DNA from: Terracoccus sp. 273MFTsu3.1
GTDB lineage: Bacteria; Actinomycetota; Actinomycetes; Actinomycetales; Dermatophilaceae
DNA: 64,000 bases
Direction of reading: 5' to 3'
Assembly: GCF_000383675.1 (NCBI RefSeq)
Contig: NZ_KB911822.1
Coordinates: 124,001 to 188,000, forward strand
Shown here: piece after piece, positions 470 through 63,303 of the stretch
Numbering within the stretch: position 1 is the stretch's first letter
How the letters are laid out: the number at the start of each line of letters is the position of its first letter
Notes under the pieces: generated by a model
What the model was told of the DNA's origin: nothing
Database searches by the model: none
What the model saw: only the letters and a program-made list of their open reading frames with translations
Made by a program: the position numbers and the translations under genes

Positions 470-1715
470 GCGGGACAGCATGCACCGCGCGAGCCTCCGG
501 GGAGACGGTAACGCCGGTGCCGACGCGATCGCGGCCGGGCAGCGCGGTCAGCGCGAGCGCCAGGGCGACCGCTGCCAGCACGACGACGACGCCGGCGACG
601 ACGGCCCACCCGGGGCCGGACCAGGCGTAGCCGAGCAGCCAGCCGAACAGGGCGGACCCGCTGTAGTAGGCGACGTTGTAGAGCGCGGTCGCCTGGGCGC
701 GCCCGGTCGTCGCGCGAGCGCCGACCCAGGCGGATGCCGTCGCGTGGGCGGCGAAGAAGCCGGCGGTGAGGACGAGGAGCCCGACGACGACGACGGGCAG
801 CGCGACCGACAGCGTGAGGAGGGCGCCGACTGCCATGGTCACGGTGCCCGTGACGAGCACGCGCCGCCGCCCGAGACGCGGCACCCAGCGGCCGGTGAGG
901 CGCGAGCTGACGGTGCCGGCGGCATACGCGGCGAAGATCAGCGACCCGACCGTCGCGGGCAGCGCGAACTCCGGGCCCTCGAGCCGGAAGGCGAGGTAGT
1001 TGTAGACCGCGACGAACCCGCCCATGAGGAGGGCGCCCTGGGCGTAGAGCGCCAGCAGCGCCGGGTCCCGCAGGCTCGTGCGTATGCCGTCCACGACGGT
1101 CCGCGCGGTGGCGGCGGTCGTCGGCCGGTAGCCACGGGCCCGCGGCATGAGCCGCAGGAAGACGGCGGATGCGAGCGCACACACGGCGGCCACGGTGAGC
1201 AGGGCCGGACGCCAGCCGACGACGCCGGCGAGGGGTCCGGCGATCAGCCGCCCGGCGGCGCCCCCGACCGTCGTGCCCGAGATGTAGGCCGCGGCCGCTG
1301 CCGCCGTGTGGCGGGCATGCACCTCGTCGTGGAGGTAGGTGACGGCGAGGGCGGGAAGCCCACCGAGGGCCATGCCCTCGACGAGGCGCAGGGCGAGCAG
1401 GGCCTCGATCCCGGGTGCGAGCGCGACGGCGACCCCGAGCCCGGTCGAGGCGACGATGGCCACCTGCATGGCGCGCAGCCGGCCGACGCGGTCGGCGATC
1501 CACGACCACGGCAGGACGGAGACGGCGACGCCGAGGGTCGCGAGGGAGACCGACAGGGCTGCGTCGGCGGGGCTGACCTCGAGGCCGCGCGCGAGGGTGG
1601 GCAGCAGTCCCTGCGGTGAGTAGAGCTGCGCGAACGTCGCGATGCCCGCCGCACCGAGCCCGACGAGGATGCGGCGGTACTCGCGGCTCGCGGGGAGGTG
1701 TCCGGCCCAGGTCAT
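438..1715 (-). CDS. MFS transporter, YnfM/AraJ-like efflux permease
   Basis: A 425-residue protein with about twelve hydrophobic helices and an MFS loop A motif (SWIADRVGRLRAMQV, near residues 70-84). The N-terminal pattern FAQLYSPQGLLPTLA resembles the YnfM group of drug or metabolite exporters. I chose the ATG at 1715 rather than the in-frame ATG at 1775 because the longer version would add a polar, proline-rich extension running into the promoter of the divergent regulator. It is transcribed away from a LysR regulator with 71 bases between starts, the same arrangement as ynfL/ynfM in enterobacteria, so that regulator probably controls it. Substrate unknown. Confidence 0.9.
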   Translation of the reverse strand: MTWAGHLPASREYRRILVGLGAAGIATFAQLYSPQGLLPTLARGLEVSPADAALSVSLATLGVAVSVLPWSWIADRVGRLRAMQVAIVASTGLGVAVALAPGIEALLALRLVEGMALGGLPALAVTYLHDEVHARHTAAAAAAYISGTTVGGAAGRLIAGPLAGVVGWRPALLTVAAVCALASAVFLRLMPRARGYRPTTAATARTVVDGIRTSLRDPALLALYAQGALLMGGFVAVYNYLAFRLEGPEFALPATVGSLIFAAYAAGTVSSRLTGRWVPRLGRRRVLVTGTVTMAVGALLTLSVALPVVVVGLLVLTAGFFAAHATASAWVGARATTGRAQATALYNVAYYSGSALFGWLLGYAWSGPGWAVVAGVVVVLAAVALALALTALPGRDRVGTGVTVSPEARAVHAVPHERRSGGGTA

Positions 1716-1786
1716 GCGCTCGACGCTAGGTCGGTCAGCTCGTGCGCACCAATGCATACCAGCCGGGTGACTCATACGATTCGAGC

Positions 1787-2716
1787 ATGAGACCAGCGCA
1801 GTTCCGGGCCGTCGTGCGGCTGCTGCCCGTCTTCGTCGTCGTCGCGGAGGTCGGCCAGGTGACGACCGCGGCCGCCGTCCTCGGGATGCCGCAGCCGACC
1901 GTCAGCCGGGCCCTGGCCCGCCTCGGTGAGCTGCTCGGCACCCCGGTCGTCGAGCGGGACGGGCGCGGGATCGCCCTGACGGCGGCCGGCCGGGCGCTGC
2001 TGCCCTTCGCGCGGGAGGGCGTCGGTGCGCTCGAGCGCGGGGTCGACGCCGTGACCGGGTCGAGCATCGTCGGGCACGGCACGGTCGGGCTGTCGTTCCA
2101 GACCCTGCTCGGCGAGGCGGTCGTGCCGGCCCTCATCCGCCGGTTCCGCGACCGCTTCCCGGGGGTGCGGTTCGAGCTGGCCCAGGGCTCACGGCAGAAG
2201 GCCCTCGACGACTTCGAGGCCGGCCGCTGCTCGGTCGCGCTCGTGGCGTCGCCGCCGTCGCTGCCCGGTGCGTCGACCACGGTGCTCTACGACGAGCCGC
2301 TCGTCGTCGCCGTGCACCGGTCGCACCCGGCCGCCGGGGCGGGCTCCGTCTCCGTCGAGCGTCTGGCCGCCGACGGGGGCGACGAGCTCATCGTCCTCAA
2401 GACCGGTTTCGGCCTGCGTGGCCGCGTCGAGGAGATCTACGCCGACGCCGGGGTGCCGCTGCGTGTGGCCTTCGAGGCCGAGGACGTCCACACCGCAAGG
2501 GGACTCGTCGGTGCAGGGCTCGGTGTCGCGATCCTCCCGGACTTCACCCCGGAGCGCGACGTCGTGCCCGTCCGGCTCGACCACCCGCAGGCGCAGCGGA
2601 CCATCGGCGCCCTGGTGCGCAACCCCGCGCACGACCCGACGATCGCGGCCTTCGAGGAGTTCGTGGGCCGGTCGGGACGACCGGTGGCGCTCGCCGCGCT
2701 CAGCCGGCCATCCTGA
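1787..2716 (+). CDS. LysR-family transcriptional regulator
   Basis: A 309-residue regulator with an N-terminal winged helix-turn-helix (roughly residues 5-65; AAAVLGMPQPTVSRALARLGELLG is the recognition region, split here as AAAVLGMPQPTVSRA and LARLGELLG) and a C-terminal effector-binding domain. The ATG at 1787 is preferred to an upstream ATG at 1742 because it begins directly at the conserved N-terminus. It is divergent from the MFS exporter; the 71-base gap contains the palindrome ATGCAT at 1752-1757, a possible part of a LysR site, but I cannot define a full box. Its 3' end overlaps the convergent small membrane gene by 17 bases. Confidence 0.93.
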   Translation: MRPAQFRAVVRLLPVFVVVAEVGQVTTAAAVLGMPQPTVSRALARLGELLGTPVVERDGRGIALTAAGRALLPFAREGVGALERGVDAVTGSSIVGHGTVGLSFQTLLGEAVVPALIRRFRDRFPGVRFELAQGSRQKALDDFEAGRCSVALVASPPSLPGASTTVLYDEPLVVAVHRSHPAAGAGSVSVERLAADGGDELIVLKTGFGLRGRVEEIYADAGVPLRVAFEAEDVHTARGLVGAGLGVAILPDFTPERDVVPVRLDHPQAQRTIGALVRNPAHDPTIAAFEEFVGRSGRPVALAALSRPS

Positions 2717-2876: not shown

Positions 2877-2978
2877 GGGAGCTCCATCGGTCGGGTCCTG
2901 CGCGTCACGGTGCCTGGGCACGGCAAACGAGCCTATCGCCGAACAGGTCACGCGCGCGGTGGACAGGCCGGCCCGTCG

Positions 2979-3647: not shown

Positions 3648-3672
3648 GGCGGGCTCCTCGCCGGTGGGACGG

Positions 3673-4043: not shown

Positions 4044-4105
4044 CCGTCCAGTGTGCGCCCGTCCGGCCGCCGGGTCCATGGGGGACCCGGCGGCATACGA
4101 CGTCG

Positions 4106-5184: not shown

Positions 5185-5219
5185 ACGTATGCCGCCTGGC
5201 TCAGCCAGGCGGCATACGT
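5185..5219 (-). terminator. Perfect 17-bp-arm hairpin, terminator of the DUF2853 gene
   Basis: The arms ACGTATGCCGCCTGGCT and AGCCAGGCGGCATACGT are perfectly complementary with a single central C, 24 bases beyond the DUF2853 stop codon. There is no T-run, as is common for actinobacterial hairpin terminators. Both arms contain the window-wide motif GTATGCCG/CGGCATAC, so the palindrome also gives two head-to-head copies of that motif. Confidence 0.7.
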
Positions 5220-6757: not shown

Positions 6758-7744
6758 TCAGCGGTCCACGCCGTCGCCGGAGGATCCCGAGCCGGACGCC
6801 ACGAGCGCGTCACCCACGGCGGTGCGCCAGTAGAGCACCTCGCGCCCCGACCGTCGGCGCAGGACGAGGCCGGCGGCGAGGAGCACCTTGAGGTGGTCGC
6901 TGACCGACCCCACCGCGAGCTCGGTGTTGGCGGCGAGACCCGTTGTGCTGGAGGGTGATTCGAGGGCGACCAGGATCCGGGCGCGGTTGCGGCCCACGAG
7001 GCGCTCGAGGCCGTCGGGAGCCCCGGCGTCGACGCGAGCCAGCGCTCCGGCGACGGGGTAGTAGACGGCATACCGCTGCGGGTGGAGCCAGCCGACCCAA
7101 CGGGCGCGGTGGTTGACGGGCACGAAGAAGAGGTCGGCGTCGTCGGGGAGCACCCTTGACGGCAGGTCGTAGTGGTTGATGCGCAGGTGGCCGTCGCCGA
7201 CCCACTCGCGGTCGCGGCCGAGGTCGTGCAGCACCGCGGCCCATCCCTGGGTGGCGAGGCGTGAGGTGCGGGCGACGATGTCGGCACGCAGGATCCGCTC
7301 CCGTCGGGCCCAGTCGGTGGCGAGGACGTGCGTCCAGACCCACTCGAGCAGCTCGACGCCGTGCTCGGTGAGCCCGTCGGCCAGCAGCGCGTCGGGCAGG
7401 TCGCGGGTCGGCGAGCTCTCGGCGAGCTGGTCGCGCATCAGGTCGTCACCGAGGGCGCGCACGTCGTCGAGCTCCTCGGCGAAGGTACGCCCGCCGGAGA
7501 CCGGCGGCAGGCACAGCCAGTCCGAGATCCACTGCGGCTTCCAGCTGTGGTCGAGGACGGCGCGCCGCACGGGGTGGGCGTCGAGCATCGCCCGGAACGC
7601 CTCGCCGTGGGCGGCCGCGAGGGCGCGGCCCTCGGGGTCGGAGGGACGCACGAGGTCGTTGAGCGCGCCGACCGTCTCGATGCGCGGCGAGACGACGAAG
7701 CGGCTGCGGGCCAGCAGGTCCGCCGAGATCTGCCACGTCCCCAT
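6758..7744 (-). CDS. ArsR-type winged-helix regulator with N-terminal DUF5937-like domain
   Basis: A 328-residue protein. The long N-terminal part (about 1-235) begins WQISADLLARSRFVVSPRIE and resembles the DUF5937 sensor module. The C-terminal ~75 residues are an ArsR helix-turn-helix (TGLAANTELAVGSVSDHLKVL, with VLLAAGLVLRRRSGREVLYW as the wing; these are two separate stretches). It is divergent from an MFS transporter with only 49 bases between starts. That gap, together with the first bases of this gene, contains a perfect 8-base inverted repeat that covers the start codon, so autorepression and control of the exporter are likely. A GGAGG precedes the ATG by six bases. Confidence 0.85.
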   Translation of the reverse strand: MGTWQISADLLARSRFVVSPRIETVGALNDLVRPSDPEGRALAAAHGEAFRAMLDAHPVRRAVLDHSWKPQWISDWLCLPPVSGGRTFAEELDDVRALGDDLMRDQLAESSPTRDLPDALLADGLTEHGVELLEWVWTHVLATDWARRERILRADIVARTSRLATQGWAAVLHDLGRDREWVGDGHLRINHYDLPSRVLPDDADLFFVPVNHRARWVGWLHPQRYAVYYPVAGALARVDAGAPDGLERLVGRNRARILVALESPSSTTGLAANTELAVGSVSDHLKVLLAAGLVLRRRSGREVLYWRTAVGDALVASGSGSSGDGVDR

Positions 7745-9017: not shown

Positions 9018-12000
9018 TCAGCCGGTCACGAGCCCGCGACGTCGCGCGATGGCGGCCGCCTCGGTGCGTCCGGAGGCGCCGAGCTTGGCCAGGAGGTTGG
9101 ACACGTGGACGCTCACGGTCTTGGTGCTGATGTAGAGCTGCTTGCCGATCTGACCGTTGGTCAGGCCCTGCGCCAGCAGCCCGAGCACCTCGAGCTCACG
9201 CGGGGTGAGGTCGACCGTCACGCCGCCGGGGCGCACCGCGTCGAGCTCGGCGAGGAGCGGCTTGGCCTCGAGCCTGACGGCCTCCTCGCGGGCCCGCTCG
9301 GCCACCGTGCGGGACTCGACGTCCTCGCCCGCGGCCCGCAGGGCCTCGGCGAGCCGCGCCCGTGAGCGGGCGGTCTCGAAGACGTGGCCGTAGCGCTCGA
9401 ACGCCGCGACGCTCTCACGCCACGCGTCGACGAGCTCGGTCACCGGCGGCGGCTCCTCGACCCCGGCGACCCGCTGGAGCCGCAGCACCTCGGCCTCGAG
9501 CCGTGCGGTCCACGCCCACGTCTCGCGGCTCGTGTCCTCGAGCGACTCGGCGGCGGCGCGCTCGAACTTCGGACGGCTCGCCTTCTCGACGGCGGGCCGC
9601 AGCTGGCCGATGCGCCGCCCGCGATCGGCGAGCTCGTCGACGAGGGCGACGGCGCGGGCCCGGAGCGCAGGGTCGGCCCGCGGCACGAGCGCTGCCGCCT
9701 GCCCCGCCACGAGCGCGGCCAGCCGCACGACGGCGTGGTACTCGCCCCACGTCGAGTCGAGCACGCCGACCGCGGCCTCCGTGAGGTCGAGCAGGCCGGC
9801 GAGGTCGCCCGCGTCGCCGAGGACGTCGACGGCGGGCATGACGGTGAGCACGACGCACAGCCCGTCGACGGGCCACCACTCCCGCAGCGCCCCGATGAGG
9901 TCGGGGTCGACGGGGTCTCCGCGACCGGCGTGCACGAGCAGGGCGGCGCCGGTGAAGATCGTGCGCCCCGGCTGCGGGGCCGGGCGCCCCGCGAGGTCGA
10001 GGCGGCGCGCCGCGCCGTCCCAGTCGCCGAGCTCGTAGGCCGTGAGCCCGCCGAGGAGGCGGCACTCCTGCCCCCACGGTGCCCACTCGCGGTGCATCCG
10101 GCGTGCCACGGCGGCGCCGCGGTCGTACAGCTGGAGCGACCCGGGCAGGTCGCCGCGGCGGTGCGCCAGCGACGCGAGCTGGTGGACGGCGCGCAGCAGC
10201 AGCGGGTCGTCCGGGTCGATGTCGGCGACGATCGAGCGCAGGTGCGTCTCGACCGAGTCGAGGTCCTGCTGCGCCTCGAGGATGCGCGCCATGATCGTGC
10301 GCACCTCGGCGAGCGCACCGCCGAGGCCGAGGCGCTCGGCGAGCAGGGACACCTCGTTGCCGACGACCGCCGCCTCGACGAACGAGCCGTTGTCGACGAG
10401 CGCCTGCACGCGCGCGACGAGCACGCGCACCCGGCGCTCGTCGGCCTCCTCGCCGATGAGCGACAGCGCCTCGTCGGTCAGGGCGATGGAGTCGATGGGC
10501 AGGTCGAGGATTCGCGAGCGGATGACGAGGGTCGAGAGGAGGTCGGCGCGCGCGCCCGGGTCTTGGGCCGTGCCGGGGTGGTCGAGCCGGTCACGCAGCA
10601 GGTCCATGGCGCGGATCGGCTCACCGGCGACCATCGCCGCGCGCGACGCCCGGAGCGTGACCTCGTCGCGTTCGGGGTCGTCCTCGTCGAGCCACGTGAG
10701 GGCGCGCTCGAGGAGCAGCAACGCCTCCTGCGGGCCTCCGACGGCCATGGCCGCCTCGGCCGCCGCGCGGCTCGCGCGGACCGCCGTCGGCAGATCGCCC
10801 ACGGCCGCGGCGTGGCGGGCGAGCTCGGACGCGGGGGCGAGCTCGGGGCGCTCGGCCAGCACGGCGGCATACGCCCGGTGGAGGCGGAGGCGCTCTCCCG
10901 GGAGGAGGCTGTCGGCGACGGCCTCGCCGAGCAGGGCGTGGCGGAAGGTGTAGGCCGGGGGCCAGCGGGCCTCGAGGACGTGGTGCTCGACCGCAGCGGC
11001 GAGGGCGGCCTCGAGCGTCTCGTCGGGGAGGTCGACGACGCGGGAGAGGAGATCGTGGCCGATGAACTGGCCGCCCTTGAGGGCGACGGCCCGGAGCACG
11101 CGCTGGGCGGTGTCGTCGAGCTGCTCGACGCGGGCGCGGAGCACGCGGCTCAGGCCGCCGGTCAGGCCCTGGCCGGCCGCGGCGCTGGCGACGAGCTCCT
11201 CGGCGAAGAACGGGTTGCCCTCGGAGCGGCGGGCGATCTCGGCGTTCGTCGCGGCGTCGGTGGGGGCGCCCTCGATGCCGGAGACGAGCTCGCGCACGGC
11301 GTCGTCGGGGAGCGGGGCGAGCTCGACGTGCTCGAGCCCCGCGATGCGCGCCCACACGGCGAGCGTCTCGTGGAGGGGGTGGCGGCGGTAGAGGTCGTCG
11401 GAGCGGTAGGTCACGACGAGGCCGACCGCGCGCGTGAAGCCGCGGGTCAGCAGGAGGGTGATGAGGTCGCGCGAGGAGTGGTCGGCCCAGTGGACGTCCT
11501 CGACGACGAGGAGGGACGGCTGGGCGTCGCCGAGCGCGGACAGCAGAGCGTGCACCGCCTCGGCGACCTGGCCGGGGTCGGTGCTCCGTGCGGAGCGGTC
11601 GTTGTCGGGTGCGTCGGCGCGCCCCGGAAGGAGGTGGCCGAGGCTCGGGTGGGTCTCGAGCACGCGCTCGACGACCTCGGGATGGCCTGCGTCGATGGTG
11701 CCGACGAGCTCGACGAACGGCAGGTAGGCGAGGCTGCTGCCCGCCTGGCCGACGCAGTGACCGACGGCGGTGAACCAGCCGGCCGTGGTGGCCTCGGCCA
11801 CGAGGGCTCCCACGATGCGGGACTTGCCGATGCCGGCGTCGCCGGACAGCACGACGACGCCACCGGGCCGGGCACCCGGGGTGGGGCGCAGTCCGATGGC
11901 GTCGGCGAGACGGGACAGATCGGTGTCCCGCCCGATGAGGGGGCCCGTGCTGAGCGGCATACGCGGAATCATCGCGTACTCCGCCGACAGGAGCGGGACG

Positions 12001-12234: not shown

Positions 12235-12329
12235 CTGAGGTAGACCCCCACATCGGACGACCGCCCTATCCCTGCCCCTCCGCTACCTCAGATCCGATGG
12301 CGTATGCCGTGTGGACCCGTCTGAGGTAG
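12235..12329. promoter_or_regulatory. Three CTGAGGTAG sites upstream of the small gene and LAL regulator
   Basis: CTGAGGTAG occurs at 12235-12243 and 12321-12329 and its reverse complement CTACCTCAG at 12283-12291. The last two extend to perfect 10-base inverted arms (CTACCTCAGA/TCTGAGGTAG). Three exact 9-mers within 95 bases of a regulator's promoter suggest binding sites, possibly for the LuxR-type protein itself. The gap also holds one copy of GTATGCCG at 12302. A terminator role is less likely because the loop between the arms is 27 bases. Confidence 0.5.
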
Positions 12330-12344: not shown

Positions 12345-13211
12345 TCAGGCGGGCGGGAAGGCGCGGGCGATCCGGGCGAGGACGGCAGCCACGTCCACCG
12401 CCGGTGGTTCCGTGCCGCGGCTGGCCGGCACCGCCGTGACGAGCTCCATGAGGCGCTTGGACCACAGCACGTGCACACCGCGCGTCACGAAGGCTCCGCC
12501 GATGAGCTGCCAGTCGGCGGCGACGAAGCACAGCACCCCCGTGACCGGGACGGTCGGGTCGTCGACGGCCGTGCGGACGAGCTCGACCTGCTTGAGCGCC
12601 CCGTCGACGAGCTTCGTGCAGTCCCGACCACCGACGACGAGCTTCTCCGTGCGCGGACGGAAGAGGCCACCCTCGACGCGGAGAGCGGGCCTGCCCTTGT
12701 ACTTCTTCGCATCGACGACGAAGACGCCGTGGCGCGAGACGACGACGTGGTCGATGTTGGCCCGCGTCCTCGGGATGCGCCGGTCGTGCAGGACGTCGAG
12801 GCCGTCACCCACGAGGGAGTCGAGACGGCTGCCGACGAACTGCTCGCCCTCCGCGCCGGCGTCCCAGGCCCGGGTGCTCTGGGGCTCCTCGGTGATGGCG
12901 AGGAGGAACCCGCCGATGCGCGGGTGGCGCTCACGGACGCGTCGCTCCCGGGCGTCGCGCCGCCGCTCGAACTCACGCCGCGCCGAGCCGCCGGCCGGAC
13001 CGCTGGTGTCCCGTGCCGGCTCGGGCTGGAGGGGTGCTTGAGTCGGTCGTTCGTCGGGGACCACCACGCCCACCGGGGCGACCGGGTCCGCCGACTCACC
13101 CAGGCACTCGAGGCAGCGCACGGTCCGGCTCGACCGTTCGTACACGGCTCGGGTCCCTGCTGGGAGCGCGGCGGCGCAGCGTCGGCACGTACCGGCATAC
13201 CGAAGCCGCAT
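12345..13211 (-). CDS. NERD-domain protein with N-terminal zinc-ribbon-like cysteines
   Basis: A 288-residue protein. Near the N-terminus two cysteine pairs (CRRC near residues 9-12, CLEC about 25 residues later) look like a zinc ribbon. After a charged linker, residues about 115-230 match the NERD (nuclease-related) domain: AGAEGEQFVGSRLDSL, RANIDHVVVSRHGVFVVDAK and the later KQVELVRTAV, with the Asp and the D-A-K core of restriction-endonuclease-like folds. Function is unproven; NERD proteins are suspected DNA-processing enzymes. I used ATG 13211; a GTG at 13253 would add 14 residues. It sits between the LAL cluster and lysE, transcribed the same way. Confidence 0.75.
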   Translation of the reverse strand: MRLRYAGTCRRCAAALPAGTRAVYERSSRTVRCLECLGESADPVAPVGVVVPDERPTQAPLQPEPARDTSGPAGGSARREFERRRDARERRVRERHPRIGGFLLAITEEPQSTRAWDAGAEGEQFVGSRLDSLVGDGLDVLHDRRIPRTRANIDHVVVSRHGVFVVDAKKYKGRPALRVEGGLFRPRTEKLVVGGRDCTKLVDGALKQVELVRTAVDDPTVPVTGVLCFVAADWQLIGGAFVTRGVHVLWSKRLMELVTAVPASRGTEPPAVDVAAVLARIARAFPPA

Positions 13212-35031: not shown

Positions 35032-35060
35032 CGGCATACGACCTCGCGTAGGTTCGAGAG

Positions 35061-47507: not shown

Positions 47508-48268
47508 CGGTCCACTTCATCGGTGCGGGCCCGGGTGCCGCCGACCTGCTGACGCTCCGTGCGGTGCGCCTCGTCGGGGAGGCGCAGGTGTGTCTGTATG
47601 CCGGCACCTACATCGGGCCGGAGGTGCTCGCGCACTGCCCGGAGGGGGCTGAGCTCGTCGACACCCAGCACCTCGATCTCGACACCATCACCGAGCACTG
47701 CGTCCGCGCCCATGCGGCCGGTCACGACGTGGCGCGGCTCTGCTCCGGCGACCCGTCCCTCTACTCCGCCGTCGCCGAGCAGACCCGGCGACTCGACCAG
47801 GCGGGCGTGCCGTGGGACGTGACGCCCGGCGTTCCCGCGTACGCCGCCGCGGCAGCCCTCATCGGCCGCGAGCTGACGGTTCCCGAGGTCGCGCAGTCCG
47901 TCGTGCTGACCCGGGCGCACCGCGACTCGACGCAGATGCCCGAGACGGAGTCGCTCGCCCAGTTCGCGCGGTCCCGGGCCACGCTCGTGCTGCACCTCGC
48001 GATCCGACGCACGCGCGAGCTCATGGCGTCGCTCGTCGGCGACTACGGCGACGACTGCCCCGTGGTCGTCGTCGCCAACGCCGAGCAGCCCGACCAGCTC
48101 GTGCTGCGCGGCACGCTGGCCGACATCGCCGACCAGGTCGAGGCCGCCGGTCTGCGCCAGGCCGCGGTCATCCTCGTCGGACGCGCGCTCGCCGCGCGCG
48201 ACACCGACGACTTCGTCGAGTCGCACCTCTACGGCACGCGGATCACCCGAAACACGCCGGGCGCCTAG
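47504..48268 (+). CDS. cobM: Precorrin-4 C11-methyltransferase
   Basis: A 254-residue tetrapyrrole methylase starting MTVHFIGAGPGAADLLTLRA with the CobM/CbiF-type motifs YAGTYIGPEVLAHCPEGAEL, ARLCSGDPSLYSAVAEQTRR and TPGVPAYAAAAALIGRELTV. It moves a SAM methyl group to C11 of precorrin-4. The ATG overlaps the cobL stop by four bases. The gene is followed by the second cobalamin riboswitch, so the cobalt-uptake genes downstream have their own control. Confidence 0.95.
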   Translation: MTVHFIGAGPGAADLLTLRAVRLVGEAQVCLYAGTYIGPEVLAHCPEGAELVDTQHLDLDTITEHCVRAHAAGHDVARLCSGDPSLYSAVAEQTRRLDQAGVPWDVTPGVPAYAAAAALIGRELTVPEVAQSVVLTRAHRDSTQMPETESLAQFARSRATLVLHLAIRRTRELMASLVGDYGDDCPVVVVANAEQPDQLVLRGTLADIADQVEAAGLRQAAVILVGRALAARDTDDFVESHLYGTRITRNTPGA

Positions 48269-48723: not shown

Positions 48724-49497
48724 GTGGGCCTGAGCTTCGGCTCCGTGCTGCGGCGCGGAGTCCTTGCCGGCGTGTCCGCAGGTCTCACGGCCGCCGTCGT
48801 CATCTGGCTCGTCGTCGAGCCCGTCATCCGGCGAGCCCTCGCCATCGAGGACCTGCGCTCGATGCACGGTGGCCAGTCGGCGCCCGCCGGCCTGCCGGCC
48901 CACGGTGGCGATGAGCCGCTCGTGTCGCGGGCCGCCCAGGTCGTCGGTGGCGCCGTCACGGCGGTCCTCGTCGGCGTCGCTGTCGGCATCATCTTCGCCG
49001 TCGTCTTCGCCAGGATGCGCGAGCGGCTCCCCGGTCGGGGCGACTTCGGCCGCTCGATGGTGCTCGCCACGATCGGCTTCGGAGCCGTCAGTCTCCTTCC
49101 GGCACTGAAGATCCCGTCGAACCCGCCGGCGGTCGGCGACCCGGAGACGGTCGGGCAGCGCACGATGCTGTATGCCCTCGTCCTCCTCCTCGGGGTCGCG
49201 ATCGCCCTGCTCGTGCCGGTGCTCGACCAGCGCCTCGCGGCGCGTGGGACGGTGCCGTCGACGCGGTGGGCCGTCGACGTCGTCGCGACGGTCGTCCTCG
49301 TCGTCCTCGTGCTGGCGCTCGTGCCGGGCTCGCCCGATGCAGTGCCTGCCGACGTGCCTGCGGCCCTGATCTGGGACTTCCGGCTCGCGTCCCTGGCGCA
49401 GCTCGCGACGATGTGGCTCACGTTGGGTCTCGTCTTCGGGCTGCTCCTGGAACGGGTCGCGGCACCCAAGCGGGCTCTCGAGCCCGTGGCGGCGTGA
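48724..49497 (+). CDS. cbtA: CbtA, predicted cobalt-transporter subunit
   Basis: A 257-residue membrane protein from GTG 48724 with about six helices. It begins MGLSFGSVLRRGVLAGVSAG, a CbtA-type start, and has an EPVIRRALAIEDLRSMHGG region carrying acidic and histidine residues followed by further helices; PALKIPSNPPAVGDPETVGQ, near residues 119-138, is a conserved cytosol- or membrane-edge loop. With CbtB it forms a cobalt transporter regulated by B12. The stop overlaps the next gene as GTGA. Confidence 0.9.
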   Translation: MGLSFGSVLRRGVLAGVSAGLTAAVVIWLVVEPVIRRALAIEDLRSMHGGQSAPAGLPAHGGDEPLVSRAAQVVGGAVTAVLVGVAVGIIFAVVFARMRERLPGRGDFGRSMVLATIGFGAVSLLPALKIPSNPPAVGDPETVGQRTMLYALVLLLGVAIALLVPVLDQRLAARGTVPSTRWAVDVVATVVLVVLVLALVPGSPDAVPADVPAALIWDFRLASLAQLATMWLTLGLVFGLLLERVAAPKRALEPVAA

Positions 49498-49901
49498 CGG
49501 CATACGCAAACGCCTCTGCTGACAGCGATTCCGCACGCACGTGCATCGTCCGCGTGTGTCGTGACTGCTGCTGCGGCACGGAACGCAAGCACCCCGGGGT
49601 CGACCACGACGGGCTCCTGGCCCGGCTCGAGGTCGACACCCGGGGGAGCGCCCGAGTGCTGCGGAGCGCGTGCCTGCTCGCGTGCGACGAGTCGAACGTC
49701 GTCGTCGTGACGCCGTCGGTGGCCGGTCGCCGCGCCGGTGGGCGCCCCGTGTGGGTGCGCGCGGTGCTCGACCAGGCGGCGGTCGACGCGATCACCGAGT
49801 GGGTCGCGCTCGGCGGTCCCGGTGTGGCGCCGGTGCCTGCGAGCCTCGACGACCGGGTCTTCGCGCCGAGCGGGCTGTCGCTGACGTGGACCGATGTCTG
49901 A
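49494..49901 (+). CDS. (2Fe-2S) thioredoxin-like ferredoxin-domain protein of the cobalt-uptake operon
   Basis: A 135-residue protein starting at GTG 49494, overlapping the cbtA stop. The N-terminal part has CRDCCCGTERKHPGVDHDGL with clustered cysteines, and SACLLACDESNVVVVTPSV has two more, the four-cysteine pattern of thioredoxin-like [2Fe-2S] ferredoxins. Homologues are found beside CbtAB or cobalamin genes in actinobacteria. The role in cobalt handling is inferred from position. The start itself carries the CGGCATAC motif (49498-49505). Confidence 0.82.
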   Translation: MTAYANASADSDSARTCIVRVCRDCCCGTERKHPGVDHDGLLARLEVDTRGSARVLRSACLLACDESNVVVVTPSVAGRRAGGRPVWVRAVLDQAAVDAITEWVALGGPGVAPVPASLDDRVFAPSGLSLTWTDV

Positions 49902-50712: not shown

Positions 50713-51144
50713 ATGGACATTCCTCAGCAGGTCGAGGCCTACCTCGCCGGTCAGCCCGAGCCCAAGCAGACCGAGCTCCGAGAGCTGCACGCGCGGATGC
50801 TCGCAGAGTTCCCCGCGTGCAGGCTGTGGTTCATCGACGGGTCGGACGAGCAGGGCAAGGTCGTGGCCAACCCCAACATCGGCTACGGCGTGCGCACCAT
50901 CACGTATGCCGACGGGTCCTCGCGCGAGTTCTACCGCGTCGGGCTCAGTGCGAACACGACGGGCATCTCCGTGTACGTGCTCGGCCTGGAGGACAAGACC
51001 TACCTCGCGCGCACCTACGCGGACTCGATCGGCAAGGCCAGCGTGACCGGCTACTGCATCAAGTTCAGGCGCCTCTCGGCCGTCGACGCCGATGCGCTCC
51101 AGGCGGCGATCCGCGACGGCATGACCGGCGACCAGGCGGGCTGA
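50713..51144 (+). CDS. DUF1801 (YdhG-like) family protein
   Basis: A 143-residue protein from ATG 50713: MDIPQQVEAYLAGQPEPKQT, a GYGVRTITYADGSSREFYRV segment, SVYVLGLEDKTYLARTYADS and YCIKFRRLSAVDADALQAAI match DUF1801-type small proteins, which have a ferredoxin-like or YdhG fold. The molecular role is unknown. It is divergent from the DUF1905 gene and convergent with cobIJ (10 bases). Confidence 0.78.
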   Translation: MDIPQQVEAYLAGQPEPKQTELRELHARMLAEFPACRLWFIDGSDEQGKVVANPNIGYGVRTITYADGSSREFYRVGLSANTTGISVYVLGLEDKTYLARTYADSIGKASVTGYCIKFRRLSAVDADALQAAIRDGMTGDQAG

Positions 51145-53349: not shown

Positions 53350-54482
53350 GGGGACTCCTGCTCGGCGATGGTGGACAAGGCTTCCTCCGTGGACCGTGGG
53401 GTCAGCACGTCGACGTATGCCGTCGCCGGCGTTCCGCACCGTCGCTCGCACCCGCTGACGTGCACGGGAAGGTGGCCACGCGGCAGGACCGGAGCGAGGT
53501 CGCGGGCCAGGGCGCGGGTGTCGAGGGCGGACCGCGCGCAGCCAGGGAGGCCGGCGCAGGCGTGCAGTCGCGTCCAGGGGGAGTCGACGTGCGTCACGAG
53601 GCCGGCGGCCTCGAGCTCGGGTAGTGCCGGCGCGGCGTTCTCGACGACGAGCGAGCGCCACGGGGTCACGAGCACGCGATCCGTGACACGGGCGAGCGTG
53701 GCCACGTGGTCGGGTCGGAGGAGGCCCAGGGGCACGGCCACGACGGCGTGGTCGCCGACGGCCCCGCGCGGGCGCTCCGGTGGAGGTGGCAGGTCGAGCC
53801 CGGCCGTCGGCTCGGTCCCGAGTGGCATCGCGAGCTCACTGACGTGCCAGACGGACTCGTCGCCGCCGGCCCGCTCGACGAACTCCTGCGCGAGGGCCAC
53901 CAGCCGAGGCACGGCGGCCGCCAGCGGCACCTCCCAGCCCCGGTCCGTGCCGCCGACCAGCACGACGCAACGCCCGGGTCCGGTCGCGAACACGCCCAGG
54001 TCGAAGGACTCGCCCACGACGTCACCACGCCCGTCGTCGAGGACGAAGAGGAAGCGGCCACCGAGGTGGGCGAGGACGGGGTCGGCGCAGAGCGCGGTGT
54101 CGAGCGCGCGGGTGACGGGACGCAGGTCACAGTGCCCGGCGCCGTCGAGGCCGGACAGCGGTGACGCGACGACGTTGCGGACCAGCTCGTGGCTCGCCGA
54201 CGGGACGAGCCCCGTGGCCCGGATCGCCTCACGGATCCGCGGGGTCAGCGGGTCCGGCAGTCCGCGCAGCTGAAGGGCTCCGCGGGAGGTCAGCTGGATC
54301 GCTGGATCCGGTTGGACCGCAACGACATCCATGAGGCGGGACAAGGCGTCGACGGGCACGGTCCGGCCAGCCGGGCGGAGCCGCACGATCGAGCCGTCGG
54401 CCGCCACGAAGGGTCGGCTGACACCGGGGCAGGCGTCGCCTGCCCGGCGCTCTCGGCTCGACGGGGCGGTCACGCGGCACAT
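53340..54482 (-). CDS. cobG: Precorrin-3B synthase (nitrite/sulfite-reductase-type)
   Basis: A 380-residue protein, shorter than assimilatory sulfite reductases, with a nitrite/sulfite-reductase half-domain start and the iron-sulfur/siroheme cysteines in LHACAGLPGCARSALDTRAL and VHVSGCERRCGTPATAYVDV. CobG uses oxygen and an iron-sulfur cluster to make the C20-hydroxylated gamma-lactone (precorrin-3B), so the pathway here is the aerobic one. Starts at ATG 54482; GTG at 54497 is possible. No riboswitch is visible upstream of it, unlike cobN next door. Confidence 0.9.
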   Translation of the reverse strand: MCRVTAPSSRERRAGDACPGVSRPFVAADGSIVRLRPAGRTVPVDALSRLMDVVAVQPDPAIQLTSRGALQLRGLPDPLTPRIREAIRATGLVPSASHELVRNVVASPLSGLDGAGHCDLRPVTRALDTALCADPVLAHLGGRFLFVLDDGRGDVVGESFDLGVFATGPGRCVVLVGGTDRGWEVPLAAAVPRLVALAQEFVERAGGDESVWHVSELAMPLGTEPTAGLDLPPPPERPRGAVGDHAVVAVPLGLLRPDHVATLARVTDRVLVTPWRSLVVENAAPALPELEAAGLVTHVDSPWTRLHACAGLPGCARSALDTRALARDLAPVLPRGHLPVHVSGCERRCGTPATAYVDVLTPRSTEEALSTIAEQESPWT

Positions 54483-55538: not shown

Positions 55539-58500
55539 GTGACGCGCATCGCGCTGCTCTCGACGTCTGACACCGACCTGCTGTGCGCCCGCGGGAGCGG
55601 TGCCGACTACGTGCTCGCCAACCCGTCCCGGCCCGGTCACACGTCGATGGCCGAGGCGATCGAGGCTGCCGACATCGTCGTGGCTCGCATCCTCGGCGGT
55701 CCCCAGGACCTCTGCGACGGCTTCCGCCGGATCCGGGCCACGGAGAAGCCGATGGTCGTGCTCGGCGGCGAGCAGACCCCGCACGCCGCCCTCATGGAGC
55801 TCTCGACGGTCGCCCCCGGCGTCGTCGCCGAGGCGCACCGCTATCTCGCGGAGGGCGGGGCGGCCAACCTCCGCGAGCTGCACGCCTTCCTCGGCGACAC
55901 GCTCCTCATGACGGGTGAGGGCTTCGATCCGCCCGTCACCCTGCCGACGTGGGGTGTCCTCGACCGCCCCGAGCCACAGCCCGCGGCCGACGGCCACCCA
56001 CGTCCTCGCGTCGCGATCCTCTTCTACCGGGCCCAGTTCGCCGCCGAGAACACCACGTACGTCCACGCCCTCGCCGACGCGATCGACGCGGCCGGCGGCA
56101 TCGGCGTGCCCGTGCACGTGTCGTCGCTGCGCGACGCGCCCGCCGACCTGCTCGAGCACCTCGCGGCATACGACGTCCTCGTGACGACCGTGCTCGCAGC
56201 GGGCGGCACCAAGCCCGGCACCGCGAGCGCCGGCGAGGACGACGAGGCGTGGGACGTGCAGGCGCTGGCCGCCCTCGACGTCCCGATCATCCAGGGCCTC
56301 TGCCTGACGTGGAGCCGCGACCAGTGGGGGGCGAGCGACGACGGGATGAGCCCGCTCGACGTGGCCACGCAGGTCGCCGTGCCCGAGTTCGACGGCCGCA
56401 TCATCGGAGGCGTCTTCTCCTTCAAGGAGACCGACGCCGACGGCCTGCCGCACTACGTGCCGGACCCCGAGCGCTGCGCACGCCTGGCCACGCTCGCCGT
56501 CAACCACGCCCGCCTGCGCCACACGCCGCCGGCCGAGCGCCGGATCGCAGTCGTCCTGTCGGCCTACCCGTCCAAGCACTCGCGCATCGGCAACGCCGTC
56601 GGTCTCGACACGCCCGTCTCGATCATCCGGCTGCTGCGGGCGATGCGCGACGCCGGCTACGACCTAGGCGAGCCGGGCGAGATCCCCGGCACCGGGCCCC
56701 TCGAGCCGGTCGACGGCGAGTCAGCCGACACGACCGCGGGCAACGCCCTCATCCACGCGCTCATCGAGGCCGGCGGCCAGGACGAGGACTGGCTGACGCA
56801 GGAGCAGCTGAGCGGCCAGCCGGTGCGCATCCCGGCCGCCCGCTACCGCGAGCACTTCGACGCACTCCCGGCCGAGCTGCGTGATGCCGTCACGGAGCAC
56901 TGGGGAGTCGCGCCCGGCGAGGTCTTCGTCGACCGCCACGCGGACCCCGAGGGCGAGCTCGTCGCGGCGAGCATCCGGGCCGGGAACGTCGTCGTCCTCG
57001 TCCAGCCGCCGCGCGGCTTCGGCGAGAACCCCATCGCGATCTACCACGACCCCGACCTGCCGCCGACGCACCACTACCTCGCCGTCTACGACTGGCTCGC
57101 AAGGGAGTTCGGCGCCCACGCCGTCGTCCACATGGGCAAGCACGGCAACCTCGAGTGGCTGCCCGGCAAGAACCTCGCCCTGTCCGCGGCGTGCGGGCCT
57201 GACGCGACGATCGGCTCGATCCCGCTCGTCTACCCCTTCCTCGTCAACGACCCCGGAGAGGGCAGCCAGGCCAAGCGTCGCGCCCACGCGACGATCGTCG
57301 ACCACCTCGTTCCTCCCATGGCGCGCGCCGAGTCCTACGGCGACATCGCCCGCCTCGAGCAGCTCCTCGACGAGTACGGCAACGTCTCCGTCATGGACCC
57401 GGCCAAGGCGCCGGCCCTGCGCGCCGAGATCTGGACCCTCATCCAGTCCGCCCAGCTGCACCACGACCTCGGGCTCGAGGACCGTCCTGACGACGACGCC
57501 TTCGACGAGTTCGTCATGCACGTCGACGGCTGGCTCTGCGAGGTCAAGGACGTCCAGATCCGGGACGGACTCCACGTTCTTGGCGAGGCCCCCACGGGGG
57601 AGGGCCTCGCCAAGCTCGTGCTCGCGATCCTGCGGGCCAACCAGGTCTTCGCCGGTGCTGTCGCCGCGGTGCCTGGGCTGCGGACGGCGCTCGGCCTGAG
57701 TGAGGGGCACGCCGAGCGCTCGTCCGTCGACGACGCCGAGGAGCAGGCGAGCGCCCTCGTCGCCGCTCTCGCCGGGGCCGACTGGGACGAGGACGCCGTG
57801 CCCGGCATCGTGCGCGCGCGGCTGGGCGCGGACCCGCGTGTCGACACCGTCGGCGTATGCCGTTCGCTGGCCTTCGCGTGCCGCGAGGTCGTCCCGCGGC
57901 TGCGGGCGACGACGGGCGAGATCGACGCGGTCCTCCATGCGCTCGACGGCGGCTACGTCCCGGCCGGGCCCTCGGGGTCGCCCCTGCGCGGCCTCGTCAA
58001 CGTGCTGCCGACCGGCCGCAACTTCTACTCCGTCGACCCCAAGGCGATCCCGAGCCGGCTCGCCTGGGAGACCGGACAGCGCCTGGCCGACGACCTGCTG
58101 GCCCGGCACCGGGCCGACACCGGCGAGTGGCCGCGCTCGGTCGGGCTCTCGGTGTGGGGCACGTCGGCGATGCGCACGTCGGGCGACGACATCGCCGAGG
58201 TGCTGGCGCTCCTCGGCGTCCGCCCGCGCTGGGACGAGATGTCGCGCCGGGTCGTCGGGCTCGACGCCATCCCCCTCGCCGAGCTCGGCCGCCCCCGCAT
58301 CGACGTCACGGTCCGCATCTCCGGCTTCTTCCGCGACGCCTTCCCGCACGTCATCGCCATGCTCGACGACGCCGTGCAGCTCGTGGCCGGGCTCGACGAG
58401 TCCCACGACGACAACTACCTCAGGGCCCACGTCGCCGGCGACCTCGCCGAGCACGGCGACGCCCGCCGCGCCACGACCCGGATCTTCGGCAGCAAGCCGG

Positions 58501-59192
58501 GCTCCTACGGCGCCGGCATCCTCCCGCTCATCGAGTCGGGCAACTGGCGCTCGGACGCCGACCTCGCGGAGGTCTACGCGACGTGGGGCGGCTTCGCGTA
58601 CGGGCGCGAGCTGGACGGCATACCTGCTCGGGCCGACATGGAGCGCACGTACGCGCGGATGGACGTCGCCGCCAAGAACATCGACACGCGCGAGCACGAC
58701 ATCGCCGACAGCGACGACTACTTCCAGTACCACGGCGGCATGGTCGCCACGGTCCGCGCGCTCACCGGTCGCGAGCCCAAGGCGTACGTCGGCGACTCCA
58801 CGACGCCGGACGCGGTGCGCACGCGCAGCCTCACCGAGGAGACGGCGCGTGTCTTCCGAGCGCGTGTCGTCAACCCGCGCTGGATCGCGGCGATGCGGCG
58901 GCACGGCTACAAGGGCGCGTTCGAGCTCGCGGCGACGGTCGACTACCTCTACGGCTTCGACGCGACAGCCGGCGTCGTGACGGACTGGATGTACGAGCAG
59001 CTCGCCCAGACCTACGTGCTCGACAAGGAGAACCGCGACTTCCTCCAGCACGCCAACCCGTGGGCGCTGCACGGCATGGTCGAGCGGCTCCACGAGGCGG
59101 TCGACCGCGGGCTCTGGGAGGAGCCGGACGCCCAGCTGATGGCGGACCTCCAGCAGGTCTACCTCGACGTCGAGGGAGACCTCGAGGACTGA
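55539..59192 (+). CDS. cobN: Cobaltochelatase large subunit
   Basis: A 1217-residue protein from GTG 55539 with GAGGAG five bases before it. It is a typical CobN: VARILGGPQDLCDGFRRIR near the start, YAAETTP-type repeats, HMGKHGNLEWLPGKN at about residues 530-544, DPGEGSQAKRRAHATIVDHL, and GVFSFKETDADGLPHYVPDP earlier. It inserts Co2+ into hydrogenobyrinic acid a,c-diamide with ATP hydrolysed by AAA partners. The classical partners CobS and CobT are not in the window; the fused ChlI-ChlD protein at 42513-44654 probably does their job. Monocistronic under its own riboswitch. Confidence 0.96.
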   Translation: MTRIALLSTSDTDLLCARGSGADYVLANPSRPGHTSMAEAIEAADIVVARILGGPQDLCDGFRRIRATEKPMVVLGGEQTPHAALMELSTVAPGVVAEAHRYLAEGGAANLRELHAFLGDTLLMTGEGFDPPVTLPTWGVLDRPEPQPAADGHPRPRVAILFYRAQFAAENTTYVHALADAIDAAGGIGVPVHVSSLRDAPADLLEHLAAYDVLVTTVLAAGGTKPGTASAGEDDEAWDVQALAALDVPIIQGLCLTWSRDQWGASDDGMSPLDVATQVAVPEFDGRIIGGVFSFKETDADGLPHYVPDPERCARLATLAVNHARLRHTPPAERRIAVVLSAYPSKHSRIGNAVGLDTPVSIIRLLRAMRDAGYDLGEPGEIPGTGPLEPVDGESADTTAGNALIHALIEAGGQDEDWLTQEQLSGQPVRIPAARYREHFDALPAELRDAVTEHWGVAPGEVFVDRHADPEGELVAASIRAGNVVVLVQPPRGFGENPIAIYHDPDLPPTHHYLAVYDWLAREFGAHAVVHMGKHGNLEWLPGKNLALSAACGPDATIGSIPLVYPFLVNDPGEGSQAKRRAHATIVDHLVPPMARAESYGDIARLEQLLDEYGNVSVMDPAKAPALRAEIWTLIQSAQLHHDLGLEDRPDDDAFDEFVMHVDGWLCEVKDVQIRDGLHVLGEAPTGEGLAKLVLAILRANQVFAGAVAAVPGLRTALGLSEGHAERSSVDDAEEQASALVAALAGADWDEDAVPGIVRARLGADPRVDTVGVCRSLAFACREVVPRLRATTGEIDAVLHALDGGYVPAGPSGSPLRGLVNVLPTGRNFYSVDPKAIPSRLAWETGQRLADDLLARHRADTGEWPRSVGLSVWGTSAMRTSGDDIAEVLALLGVRPRWDEMSRRVVGLDAIPLAELGRPRIDVTVRISGFFRDAFPHVIAMLDDAVQLVAGLDESHDDNYLRAHVAGDLAEHGDARRATTRIFGSKPGSYGAGILPLIESGNWRSDADLAEVYATWGGFAYGRELDGIPARADMERTYARMDVAAKNIDTREHDIADSDDYFQYHGGMVATVRALTGREPKAYVGDSTTPDAVRTRSLTEETARVFRARVVNPRWIAAMRRHGYKGAFELAATVDYLYGFDATAGVVTDWMYEQLAQTYVLDKENRDFLQHANPWALHGMVERLHEAVDRGLWEEPDAQLMADLQQVYLDVEGDLED

Positions 59193-59702: not shown

Positions 59703-59720
59703 CCACGCGATCCCGGGGGG

Positions 59721-60203: not shown

Positions 60204-60216
60204 GCTCGACCTCCTC

Positions 60217-60257: not shown

Positions 60258-60309
60258 AGTCCTGAGACTCCGAGCGTATGTCGGGACGCGGGCACGTCTC
60301 GACGTTTTG

Positions 60310-61271: not shown

Positions 61272-61301
61272 TGTTGGATCAGTCTAGATTGTTGGATCAA
61301 C
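61270..61301. promoter_or_regulatory. Direct and inverted repeats between the ArsR and hydrolase genes
   Basis: ATTGTTGGATCA occurs at 61270-61281 and 61288-61299, 18 bases apart. The second copy continues as GTTGGATCAAC, an inverted repeat (GTTG and CAAC around GAT, 61291-61301). The repeats cover the ArsR start codon and lie 31 bases before the hydrolase start. AT-rich for this genome. Confidence 0.55.
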
Positions 61302-61332
61302 AGCAGGGAAACCATCGAGCACAGGAGCAAGC

Positions 61333-61908: not shown

Positions 61909-61926
61909 GGGCTCAGGCCGGGGGTT

Positions 61927-63303
61927 TCACGCTGGGGGTTCAGGCTGGAGGGCCTCGCGCGTCAGGGAGTAGTAGATCTCGTCGGAGCGGGTGCCGTCCG
62001 GGTTGGGCAGACGGCCGCTGAGCCGGCCCTCGGCGCGGAAGCCCGCCTTGGCGGCCACCCGGCCCGAGGCCTCATTGCCCACCTTGTGGCCGAGCTCGAG
62101 GCGGGCGAGTCCCGTCTCCTCGAGCGCCCACCGCGACACGAGTCGCAGGGCCCGGGTCGTGAGGCCGCGACCCCGGAAGGCCGGGAGCACGCCGTAGCCG
62201 ATGAGCCCGGTGCCGGGCGGGCCCATCCGCAGGACGCCGATGACGCCCGCACCCTCACCGGAGGCGACGTCGACGACGACGAACCGTGCCGCCCGCCCGC
62301 GGCGCCACTCGAGCGCGGCCGAGGCCGCCCGGCGTCGCGCCTCGTCGTCGGTCAGTGGCCGGCCCGCGAAGTCCCAGCGCAGCGACTCGTCGTTGTTGTG
62401 CTCGTCCCGCACCGTCTCCCAGTCGGCGGTGGTCATCGGCCGCAGCGTGACGACGCCGTCGGTCAGCGGCTCCGTCTGCGGGAAGGGGGTCGGGCCGGGG
62501 CCGGTCGGCGCGTCCGCGGGTGGCCGGAGTAGGTAGGTGTCCATGACCCAGCCGTGGCGCTCGCGGGCCTCCGCACGGACGCGGCGCACCTCGTCGACGA
62601 CGTCGGCGAGCCGTCCGTGCACGAGCAGCTCGTCAGGCGTGCCGAGGTAGGCGCCCCACCAGAGCTCGAGGTCGGGGAACGCGCCCGCGAGCTCGGCGCA
62701 CGCGAGGTGCCCGTCGAGCATGACGACGACGTCGCCGAGCGAGGGGTCGTACTCGTCGAGGAGCCGCCGACCCGTCGTGATGTGGATCGGCGCGCCGATG
62801 CGGTTGAGCGGGATGCGGTGGCGCGCGGCGAGCAGCTGCGGCGCGCTGATCCCGGCGATGACGTCGTGCGCGACGGTGACCCCCGCTGCCGCGTACCGCT
62901 GGACGAGGGCGTCGACGACGCGGATCGTCGAGTCGTAGAAGGCCGGGTCGCCCCACACGAGGAAGCCGACCGTGGTCTCGCCCTCGTCCAGCCCGTCGAT
63001 GACGTCGGCGTACGCGTCCACCCGCGCCGCGTGCCAGTCGCGCACCCCGCGGTCGTATGCCGTCGCGTCGCGTCCGGCGTCCGGCCCCCGTCGCGGGTCG
63101 GTGACCTCGACGACGCGGTACGCGTGCTCGGAGGGGATGAGCGCGTCGCACACCGCCTGCCGGGCGGCGACGAGATCGGACTTCGCGTCGCCCTTGTCGG
63201 CGACGAGGAAGACGTCGACGGTGCCCAGGGCGCCGGCCGCCTCGCCGGTCACGTGGCCCGGGTCGCCCATGCCGATCCCGATGACCCGGATGCGCTCGAT
63301 CAT
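61927..63303 (-). CDS. cobF: Fusion: precorrin-6A synthase (CobF) with C-terminal GNAT acetyltransferase
   Basis: A 458-residue protein from ATG 63303. Residues about 1-255 are CobF (IERIRVIGIGMGDPGHVTGE, VGFLVWGDPAFYDSTIRVVD, GAPIHITTGRRLLDEYDPSL), which methylates C1 of precorrin-5 with loss of acetate. Residues about 270-450 are a RimJ/RimL-type GNAT domain: LTDGVVTLRPMTTADWETVR, GLIGYGVLPAFRGRGLTTRA (acetyl-CoA loop R-G-R-G-L-T) and ARLELGHKVGNEASGRVAAK. No stop or frameshift separates the parts in the raw sequence. The GNAT part has no known step in the pathway. ATGA overlap with cobQ. Confidence 0.9.
   Translation of the reverse strand: MIERIRVIGIGMGDPGHVTGEAAGALGTVDVFLVADKGDAKSDLVAARQAVCDALIPSEHAYRVVEVTDPRRGPDAGRDATAYDRGVRDWHAARVDAYADVIDGLDEGETTVGFLVWGDPAFYDSTIRVVDALVQRYAAAGVTVAHDVIAGISAPQLLAARHRIPLNRIGAPIHITTGRRLLDEYDPSLGDVVVMLDGHLACAELAGAFPDLELWWGAYLGTPDELLVHGRLADVVDEVRRVRAEARERHGWVMDTYLLRPPADAPTGPGPTPFPQTEPLTDGVVTLRPMTTADWETVRDEHNNDESLRWDFAGRPLTDDEARRRAASAALEWRRGRAARFVVVDVASGEGAGVIGVLRMGPPGTGLIGYGVLPAFRGRGLTTRALRLVSRWALEETGLARLELGHKVGNEASGRVAAKAGFRAEGRLSGRLPNPDGTRSDEIYYSLTREALQPEPPA

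Follow-up and report, generated by a model that had tools for sequence, protein, structure and literature searches.

Sequence-specific uptake of DNA is best known in two Gram-negative families, the Neisseriaceae and the Pasteurellaceae (PMC2397512, PMC7811141; PMC numbers here and below refer to excerpts of the papers), and a 2025 review states that bacteria generally recognise DNA whatever its origin, Neisseria being one of the exceptions (PMC12236230). The DNA uptake sequence (DUS) of the Neisseriaceae is spaced at 1.5 kb in meningococci (PMC2397512), and inverted pairs of it are known to occur at terminators (PMC3630211, PMC2397512). Two DUS dialects one base apart coexist in Simonsiella muelleri, and allowing one change in the kingDUS of K. 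oralis yields only 21% more copies (PMC3630211). In the Pasteurellaceae the core of the uptake signal sequence (USS) has 9 bases (PMC1626085). Among actinobacteria, Micrococcus luteus requires two tad clusters for transformation (PMC4322843). Here we describe a short word, GTATGCCG, that is repeated on both strands throughout a stretch of 64,000 nucleotides (the window) from the soil actinobacterium Terracoccus sp. 273MFTsu3.1, family Dermatophilaceae (contig NZ_KB911822.1, positions 124,001 to 188,000).

Abundance and placement of the word

An exact count of the window found 40 copies of GTATGCC (21 on the forward strand and 19 on the reverse), of which 39 extend to GTATGCCG (20 and 19). The totals of 40 and 39 are those that an earlier note had obtained by hand; the shorter GTATGC occurs 42 times. 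The copies span positions 920 to 63062 with a mean spacing of 1.6 kb (Table 1). The observation is real and far larger than the window: the genome from which the window was taken (G000; 4.94 Mb in 18 contigs) holds 2244 copies, 1133 on the forward strand and 1111 on the reverse, against 257 copies (116 and 141) of the reversed word, which served as the control. In the 464 kb of this genome used as the statistical sample, which includes a 400-kb stretch of contig 1, there are 255 copies (mean spacing 1.8 kb), where Markov models of order 0 to 3 expect 15.6, 6.3, 8.3 and 12.9. The order-0 value is equivalent to about 2 per 64 kb, the expectation that the earlier note had estimated from base composition. 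Among all 8-mers, GTATGCCG ranks first or second by z-score in models of order 2 to 4. Models of order 5 and 6, by which the earlier note had proposed to refute the pattern, expect 189 and 252, near the observed number, but this test is circular and invalid because the sub-words come almost only from GTATGCCG itself.

Single-mismatch forms of the word number 341 in the same 464 kb, against 315 expected (order 3). By position, forms altered at the second base (151 vs 95 expected) and the fourth base (88 vs 56) are in excess, and those altered at the two ends are not (10 vs 7.5 and 11 vs 12.9). Flanking preference is weak: C precedes 64% of copies, T follows 51%, and the next base is C in 61%. 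Copies are evenly spread over the sampled 400 kb, with no clear strand skew in eight 50-kb bins. An exact and very frequent 8-mer might be a recombination or segregation signal of the type of Chi or KOPS (FtsK orienting polar sequences), and segregation was one of the roles suggested by the earlier note. The orientation of Chi and KOPS follows replication, but the strands are balanced here both genome-wide and in the bins, the origin being unmapped, and we regard a signal of this type as improbable.

To separate the word from codon usage, genes were called with a simple home-made codon-usage caller, which largely failed on G022, G019, G089 and G039, and synonymous codons were permuted 100 times with every protein kept. 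The 464 kb contain 189 in-gene copies, against 9.5 after shuffling, an excess of about 20-fold that is found on the sense (114 vs 6.0) and antisense (75 vs 3.5) strands of genes. In-gene frames are mostly TAT GCC and GCA TAC, and some copies force ATA. The 40 copies in the window, by the same caller, comprise 20 in the TAT GCC frame, 8 GCA TAC, 3 ATA, 1 ATG CCG, 1 GTA TGC and 7 intergenic copies. The earlier statement that all reading frames are used holds only in part; ATA isoleucine is indeed forced, at three sites (1082, 30754 and 58616) rather than the two first described.

Outside genes the word is over-represented: 66 of the 255 copies (26%) lie between genes or at gene edges, compared with about 13% of the sequence that is intergenic. 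Intergenic density is 1.8 per kb between convergent genes (11 sites), 1.4 between tandem genes (44 sites) and 0.6 between divergent genes (9 sites). The earlier note correctly placed three features of the window: the copy at 12302, the one that directly follows a stop (35032-35039) and the hairpin (5185-5219). The commonest frame, TAT GCC (Tyr-Ala; 106 of the 189 in-gene copies), would suit a by-product of codon pairs, composition or mutation bias. Tyr-Ala codon-pair usage alone, the other ground on which the earlier note would have given up its proposal, nevertheless fails to account for the shuffling result, and the 64 exact copies between genes (1.2 expected) and the existence of dialects (see below) also speak against a by-product, which we consider very improbable. 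Codon shuffling, the intergenic share, the genome-wide scale and the restriction to one family together provide good support for the view, already taken in the earlier note, that selection or drive acts on the DNA itself.

Some copies form inverted pairs. The hairpin at 5185-5219 folds at -38.9 and -41.1 kcal/mol on its two strands, and none of 200 shuffles folds as well. No T run was found past it, so it does not qualify as a canonical intrinsic terminator. The 400-kb stretch has four places where, as at this hairpin, inverted pairs at a distance of 23 to 39 bases make perfect or near-perfect stems. Across samples of all words, 39 pairs are close (at most 60 bases apart). Of these, 31 are inverted, with 21 in hairpin order and 10 in the other order, mostly from samples of three words; stems reach 19 bp with GTATGCCG, 17 bp with GGATGCCG and 16 bp with CGAAGGGG. 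Samples of G142, G053, G084, G114 and the Terrabacter congeners contain no close pairs.

Aligned sites in seven congeners kept the word in 57 of 75 comparisons, where 8-mers of similar AT content would lead one to expect about 52%; the comparisons share reference sites and so lack independence. The 18 losses comprise 11 one-base changes in place, 3 larger changes and 4 gaps. Some of the inverted pairs have what we take to be a likeness to the hairpins of repetitive extragenic palindromic (REP) elements, and the copies might then be a dispersed mobile or REP-like repeat. This we find scarcely credible: the copies share just about 10 bases with weak flanks, they sit in chosen codon frames inside genes, and most losses among congeners are the one-base changes just described.

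The word is scarce in DNA of low GC content. Its density is 0.115 per kb in 2-kb bins below 67% GC (3 sites in 13 bins, 26 kb) and 0.46 to 0.59 elsewhere, the opposite of what composition alone would produce, since that would raise the density in low-GC bins. Low GC is only a proxy for foreign DNA. In the 400-kb sample the word is missing for at most 11.9 kb at a time, and that stretch (61.9% GC; G000 contig C1:84608-96482, within L013) is probably acquired DNA.

Table 1. Copies of the word and the hairpin in the 64-kb window, with strand and with codon frame or location.
Feature	Position	Strand	Context
GTATGCCG	920..927	-	in gene, TAT GCC
GTATGCCG	1082..1089	+	in gene, antisense ATA (Ile)
GTATGCCG	4091..4098	-	intergenic by own caller
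Hairpin from inverted word pair	5185..5219	.	about 23 bases past end of gene 5243-5563 (-)
GTATGCCG	5187..5194	+	hairpin left arm
GTATGCCG	5210..5217	-	hairpin right arm
GTATGCCG	7066..7073	-	TAT GCC
GTATGCCG	10865..10872	-	TAT GCC
GTATGCCG	11955..11962	-	CGT ATG CCG
GTATGCCG	12302..12309	+	intergenic
GTATGCCG	13193..13200	-	intergenic by own caller
GTATGCCG	18694..18701	-	TAT GCC
GTATGCCG	19762..19769	+	TAT GCC
GTATGCCG	23904..23911	+	TAT GCC
GTATGCCG	25704..25711	+	TAT GCC
GTATGCCG	25944..25951	-	TAT GCC
GTATGCCG	28786..28793	+	antisense GCA TAC
GTATGCCG	29031..29038	-	TAT GCC
GTATGCCG	30754..30761	+	antisense ATA (Ile)
GTATGCCG	30943..30950	-	TAT GCC
GTATGCCG	32397..32404	-	TAT GCC
GTATGCCG	33865..33872	+	TAT GCC
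GTATGCCG	35032..35039	-	begins at first base past stop of open reading frame 34291-35031
GTATGCCG	35597..35604	+	TAT GCC
GTATGCCG	36755..36762	+	TAT GCC
GTATGCCG	38207..38214	-	TAT GCC
GTATGCCG	39137..39144	+	antisense GCA TAC
GTATGCCG	40420..40427	-	TAT GCC
GTATGCCG	42810..42817	+	antisense GCA TAC
GTATGCCG	44241..44248	+	antisense GCA TAC
GTATGCCG	46766..46773	+	TAT GCC
GTATGCCG	46945..46952	-	antisense GCA TAC
GTATGCCG	47596..47603	+	TAT GCC
GTATGCC then C, sole copy of 40 that is not GTATGCCG	49170..49176	+	
GTATGCCG	49498..49505	-	begins at first base past gene 48724-49497
GTATGCCG	50904..50911	+	TAT GCC
GTATGCCG	53415..53422	+	antisense GCA TAC
GTATGCCG	56164..56171	-	antisense GCA TAC
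GTATGCCG	57855..57862	+	GTA TGC CGT
GTATGCCG	58616..58623	-	antisense ATA (Ile)
GTATGCCG	63055..63062	+	antisense GCA TAC

Distribution in the family and dialects

Counting the word in the whole genome and in relatives, a check that the earlier note had recommended, extended the pattern to a family. We scored GTATGCCG as present where a genome has at least 300 copies and 2.5 times the reversed control. By this threshold it is present in 110 of 186 genomes (53 genera) of the Dermatophilaceae/Intrasporangiaceae, with a median enrichment of 11.3, and in none of 362 genomes of the order outside the family or of 138 further genomes of the class. The highest count outside the family, 386 copies against 176 of the control in G576, falls below the threshold. 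Enrichment of GTATGCCG is thus confined to one family among the genomes sampled. Named loci (15 to 69 kb per group) of Terrabacter, Intrasporangium, Humibacillus, Knoellia, Tetrasphaera and Ornithinimicrobium contain the word, and one of Mobilicoccus does not.

Family members that lack GTATGCCG frequently have a different word, and two such words are abundant genome-wide. GGATGCCG has 2099 to 4480 copies in 7 of the 186 genomes, compared with about 240 to 1340 in the rest, and CGAAGGGG has 1198 to 3180 copies in 19 genomes, compared with at most 396 in the other 167. The carriers of CGAAGGGG are the complete sets of two genera, g27 (16 genomes) and g36 (3). Both carrier lists were drawn by eye, with a wide gap to the remaining genomes. 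At least one of the three words is found in 133 of the 186 genomes. Three genomes (G034, G036 and G037) are listed for both GTATGCCG and GGATGCCG, words one letter apart; G036 and G037 each hold about 1200 copies of the former and 2100 to 2200 of the latter.

Further words were sought in samples of 40 to 132 kb by their in-gene excess over codon shuffling and their intergenic excess. These are CGTACGGCG in G084 (4.8-fold in genes; 15 vs 0.6 expected between genes), CGTAGACC in G008 (5.6-fold; 7 vs 0.6), GTAGCGGC in G114 (7.4-fold; 5 vs 0.5) and GTATGCG in G025 (6.8-fold; 5 vs 0.6). CGATGCGG in G083, GTACGCCG in G002 and CGTACGCC in G014 are probable dialect words. Words recurred in separate 20-kb comEC regions of G008, G017, G002, G014 and the g27/g36 genomes, and more weakly of G084. 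One-letter steps link GTATGCCG, GGATGCCG and GTATGCGG, and G008, G084 and G114 differ in word from their own genus; genera with such internal differences are g4, g15, g33 and g42. GAATGCCG occurs in excess beside GTATGCCG in a Phycicoccus metagenome-assembled genome (MAG; 13 vs 0.8), a Tetrasphaera MAG (9 vs 0.9) and G049 (8 vs 0.8; loci L172, L174 and L135/L247/L248), and is perhaps a further one-letter dialect.

Samples of G183, G020 and G157, from genera that have TadF (see below), yielded no clear other word. Several candidates were rejected as dialects: those of G038, which are local intergenic repeats that did not recur in a separate comEC region, those of G157, also local intergenic repeats, and that of G015, a repeat inside genes. 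The short, mainly intergenic repeats in G038 (CGTAGCGATGA and CCCTCCTA; L069-L070) and G157 (CAAGAAGTC and TTGCGAGTT; L045-L048) are probably local arrays rather than genome-wide words. G089 carries an A-rich repeat around AAAACAAGTAG with 11 to 14 copies per 40 kb (L079-L080).

Within genus g33, where G085 has GTATGCCG at 11 aligned sites, G084 has GTACGACG at four of them and GTACGCCG at three. A swap of dialects in place between these genomes is unproven, and the GTACGACG sites read Tyr-Asp codons where G085 reads Tyr-Ala. The substitution is seen at four aligned places (L150 vs L124), which suggests that the word may alter proteins.

The dialects bear on two further explanations. The word could be the site of a solitary DNA methyltransferase, accumulating, like HIP1 (highly iterated palindrome 1) of cyanobacteria, through mismatch repair linked to methylation or through some other function that depends on it, with dialects that follow changes in enzyme specificity. 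HIP1 itself gives way in some genomes to alternate HIPs, each of which has a methyltransferase to match (PMC4390886), and recognition by an enzyme is typically as exact as this word. CGTACG, a palindrome, lies within some of the sampled words, and the palindrome CCGTACGG is itself in excess in G084 (40 vs 8.6). Yet none of the ten reported words equals its own reverse complement, unlike HIPs, and one-letter steps with two such words in a genome have the look of a drifting binder, not of an enzyme swap. One-base deviations from HIP1 are biased to its first and last bases (PMC4390886), whereas the excess here is at the second and fourth. We judge this explanation unlikely, but a serious competitor. 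The other explanation, that the word is a chromosome-wide binding site of a nucleoid or chromosome-organising protein with a role in packing, domain formation or the cell cycle, would suit the even spread over 400 kb, the use of both strands and the scarcity in low-GC DNA. It does not predict inverted hairpin pairs after genes, changes of word within a genus, as in G008, G084 and G114, or genera in which no word was found, and it seems to us a little less likely again.

A candidate DNA uptake word and competence genes

The reading that we favour, and consider probable by a modest measure, is that GTATGCCG acts like a DUS, as a self-recognition label by which naturally transforming cells would select DNA. 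Free DNA with the word would be bound and taken in, the word being read during uptake; the imported DNA would recombine into the chromosome, so that the word would spread and be kept at tolerant places; and the specificity of the receptor would shift over time, giving different words in different genera. The route might be a Tad/Flp pilus, with a minor pilin of that pilus or another surface protein as the putative receptor. Uptake is favoured because the dialects replace one another, some genomes carry two words one letter apart, inverted copies form hairpins and the word is scarce in low-GC DNA, and these traits fit neisserial DUS dialects better than HIP1 or Chi. Among the roles listed in the earlier note (uptake, methylation, nucleoid, segregation), uptake is thus preferred and segregation disfavoured, and the likeness to HIP1 drawn there is partial. 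The wider proposition, that a Gram-positive family recognises its own DNA by sequence via a Tad/Flp pilus, using three words genome-wide and up to about ten in all, is plausible but falls somewhat short of probable.

Components of competence are present, though their presence by itself is no proof of competence. G000 encodes ComEA with a helix-hairpin-helix domain, and ComEC was found in all 30 family genomes sampled. One tad locus of G000 (C) has genes for an ATPase, an Flp-like protein, TadE, TadF and TadG, and a second (B) has an ATPase, a DUF4244 pilin and a TadE-like gene that lies below the Pfam cut-off. The Flp-like protein has no Pfam match, and neither does TadF, which owes its name to its position and to a gene order like that of M. 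luteus. Adjoining a tad C locus and transcribed away from it is the gene of a 1426-residue protein (L243:3393-7673) with relatives at 6 of 7 other C loci; by eye it looks like an FHA/FtsK-type protein.

ComEC (30 of 30) and the locus B pilin (PF14029; 172 of 186 genomes, including members of every genus without TadF) are too widespread to explain which genomes have a word. A type IVa pilus was rejected as the general route, with the PilM profile in just 7 of 186 genomes, and no sequence-specific receptor was identified among the PilM and Tad pilin profile searches of the 186 genomes. A TadF profile built from seven C loci matches 167 of them. Among genomes at least 90% complete it is found in 112 of 115 that bear any of the three genome-wide words and in 37 of 48 wordless ones (p 1e-4); by genus the figures are 30 of 31 and 12 of 17 (p 0.017). 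This association fits uptake and is no proof of it, since the genomes are related and DNA binding by TadF is supposed.

Several observations weigh against the uptake reading. Three genomes that are at least 99% complete (G073, G124 and G178) bear a word but have no detectable TadF, and 12 genera have TadF but none of the three words. Counted by genus the association weakens, phylogenetic confounding may contribute to it, and TadF is not alone in showing it: the locus B pilin leans the same way (114 of 115 vs 44 of 48, p 0.027, from 5 absences in 163 genomes at least 90% complete). Our prediction, set beforehand, that genera without TadF would be wordless failed, as G178 has 3949 copies of GGATGCCG; samples of four of the five other such genera (G001, G022, G038 and G069) gave no clear word. 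Near-misses are at background overall and between genes (43 single-mismatch forms vs 41.5 expected), the second- and fourth-base forms excepted, unlike what a receptor of graded preference would leave, although tolerance of one change adds few copies to the kingDUS too (PMC3630211). Site conservation among congeners is moderate. The open-licence literature searched yielded no sequence-specific uptake in a Gram-positive organism and no uptake sequence in actinobacteria, and the letters GTATGCCG led to unrelated topics among the matches listed.

If true, uptake would mean that an uptake language with dialects has evolved a second time, independently of that of the Neisseriaceae, and that such languages arise repeatedly and with another pilus. 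An actinobacterial family with words of its own would also offer natural dialect switches for finding the receptor. Should uptake prove wrong, the words would remain a genome signature that spans the family, with variants that replace one another, and that we could match to no known system.

Comparison with known systems

Like the USS of Pasteurellaceae, which is linked to natural transformation, GTATGCCG is a short and frequent word. USS cores have flanking tracts and many near-misses, whereas near-misses here show no overall excess. With HIP1 it shares an exact 8-mer spread genome-wide and replaced by alternates in some genomes, but HIPs are palindromic and HIP1 is tied to two methyltransferases (PMC4390886). 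M. luteus has comEA, comEC and two tad loci, as does G000; the excerpts of PMC4322843 and PMC8467076 mention no uptake sequence for it, and GTATGCCG is unenriched outside the family in the genomes sampled.

The likeness to the DUS of Neisseriaceae is the broadest. It extends to copy numbers in the thousands, clade-specific dialects that differ stepwise by single bases, genomes with two dialects, inverted pairs that fold into hairpins, a spacing of about 1.5 kb and absence from recently acquired genes (PMC3630211, PMC2397512), for which low GC stands in here. DUS differ in having 10 to 12 bases, compared with about 8 in these words, and in being read by the minor pilin ComP; the family studied here belongs to another phylum with another cell wall and lacks a general type IVa pilus. 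GTATGCCGTC resembles ATGCCGTCTGAA, perhaps by chance, since the likeness is absent from most other words here. Of the described systems, GTATGCCG behaves most like an uptake sequence and is a candidate member of that class.

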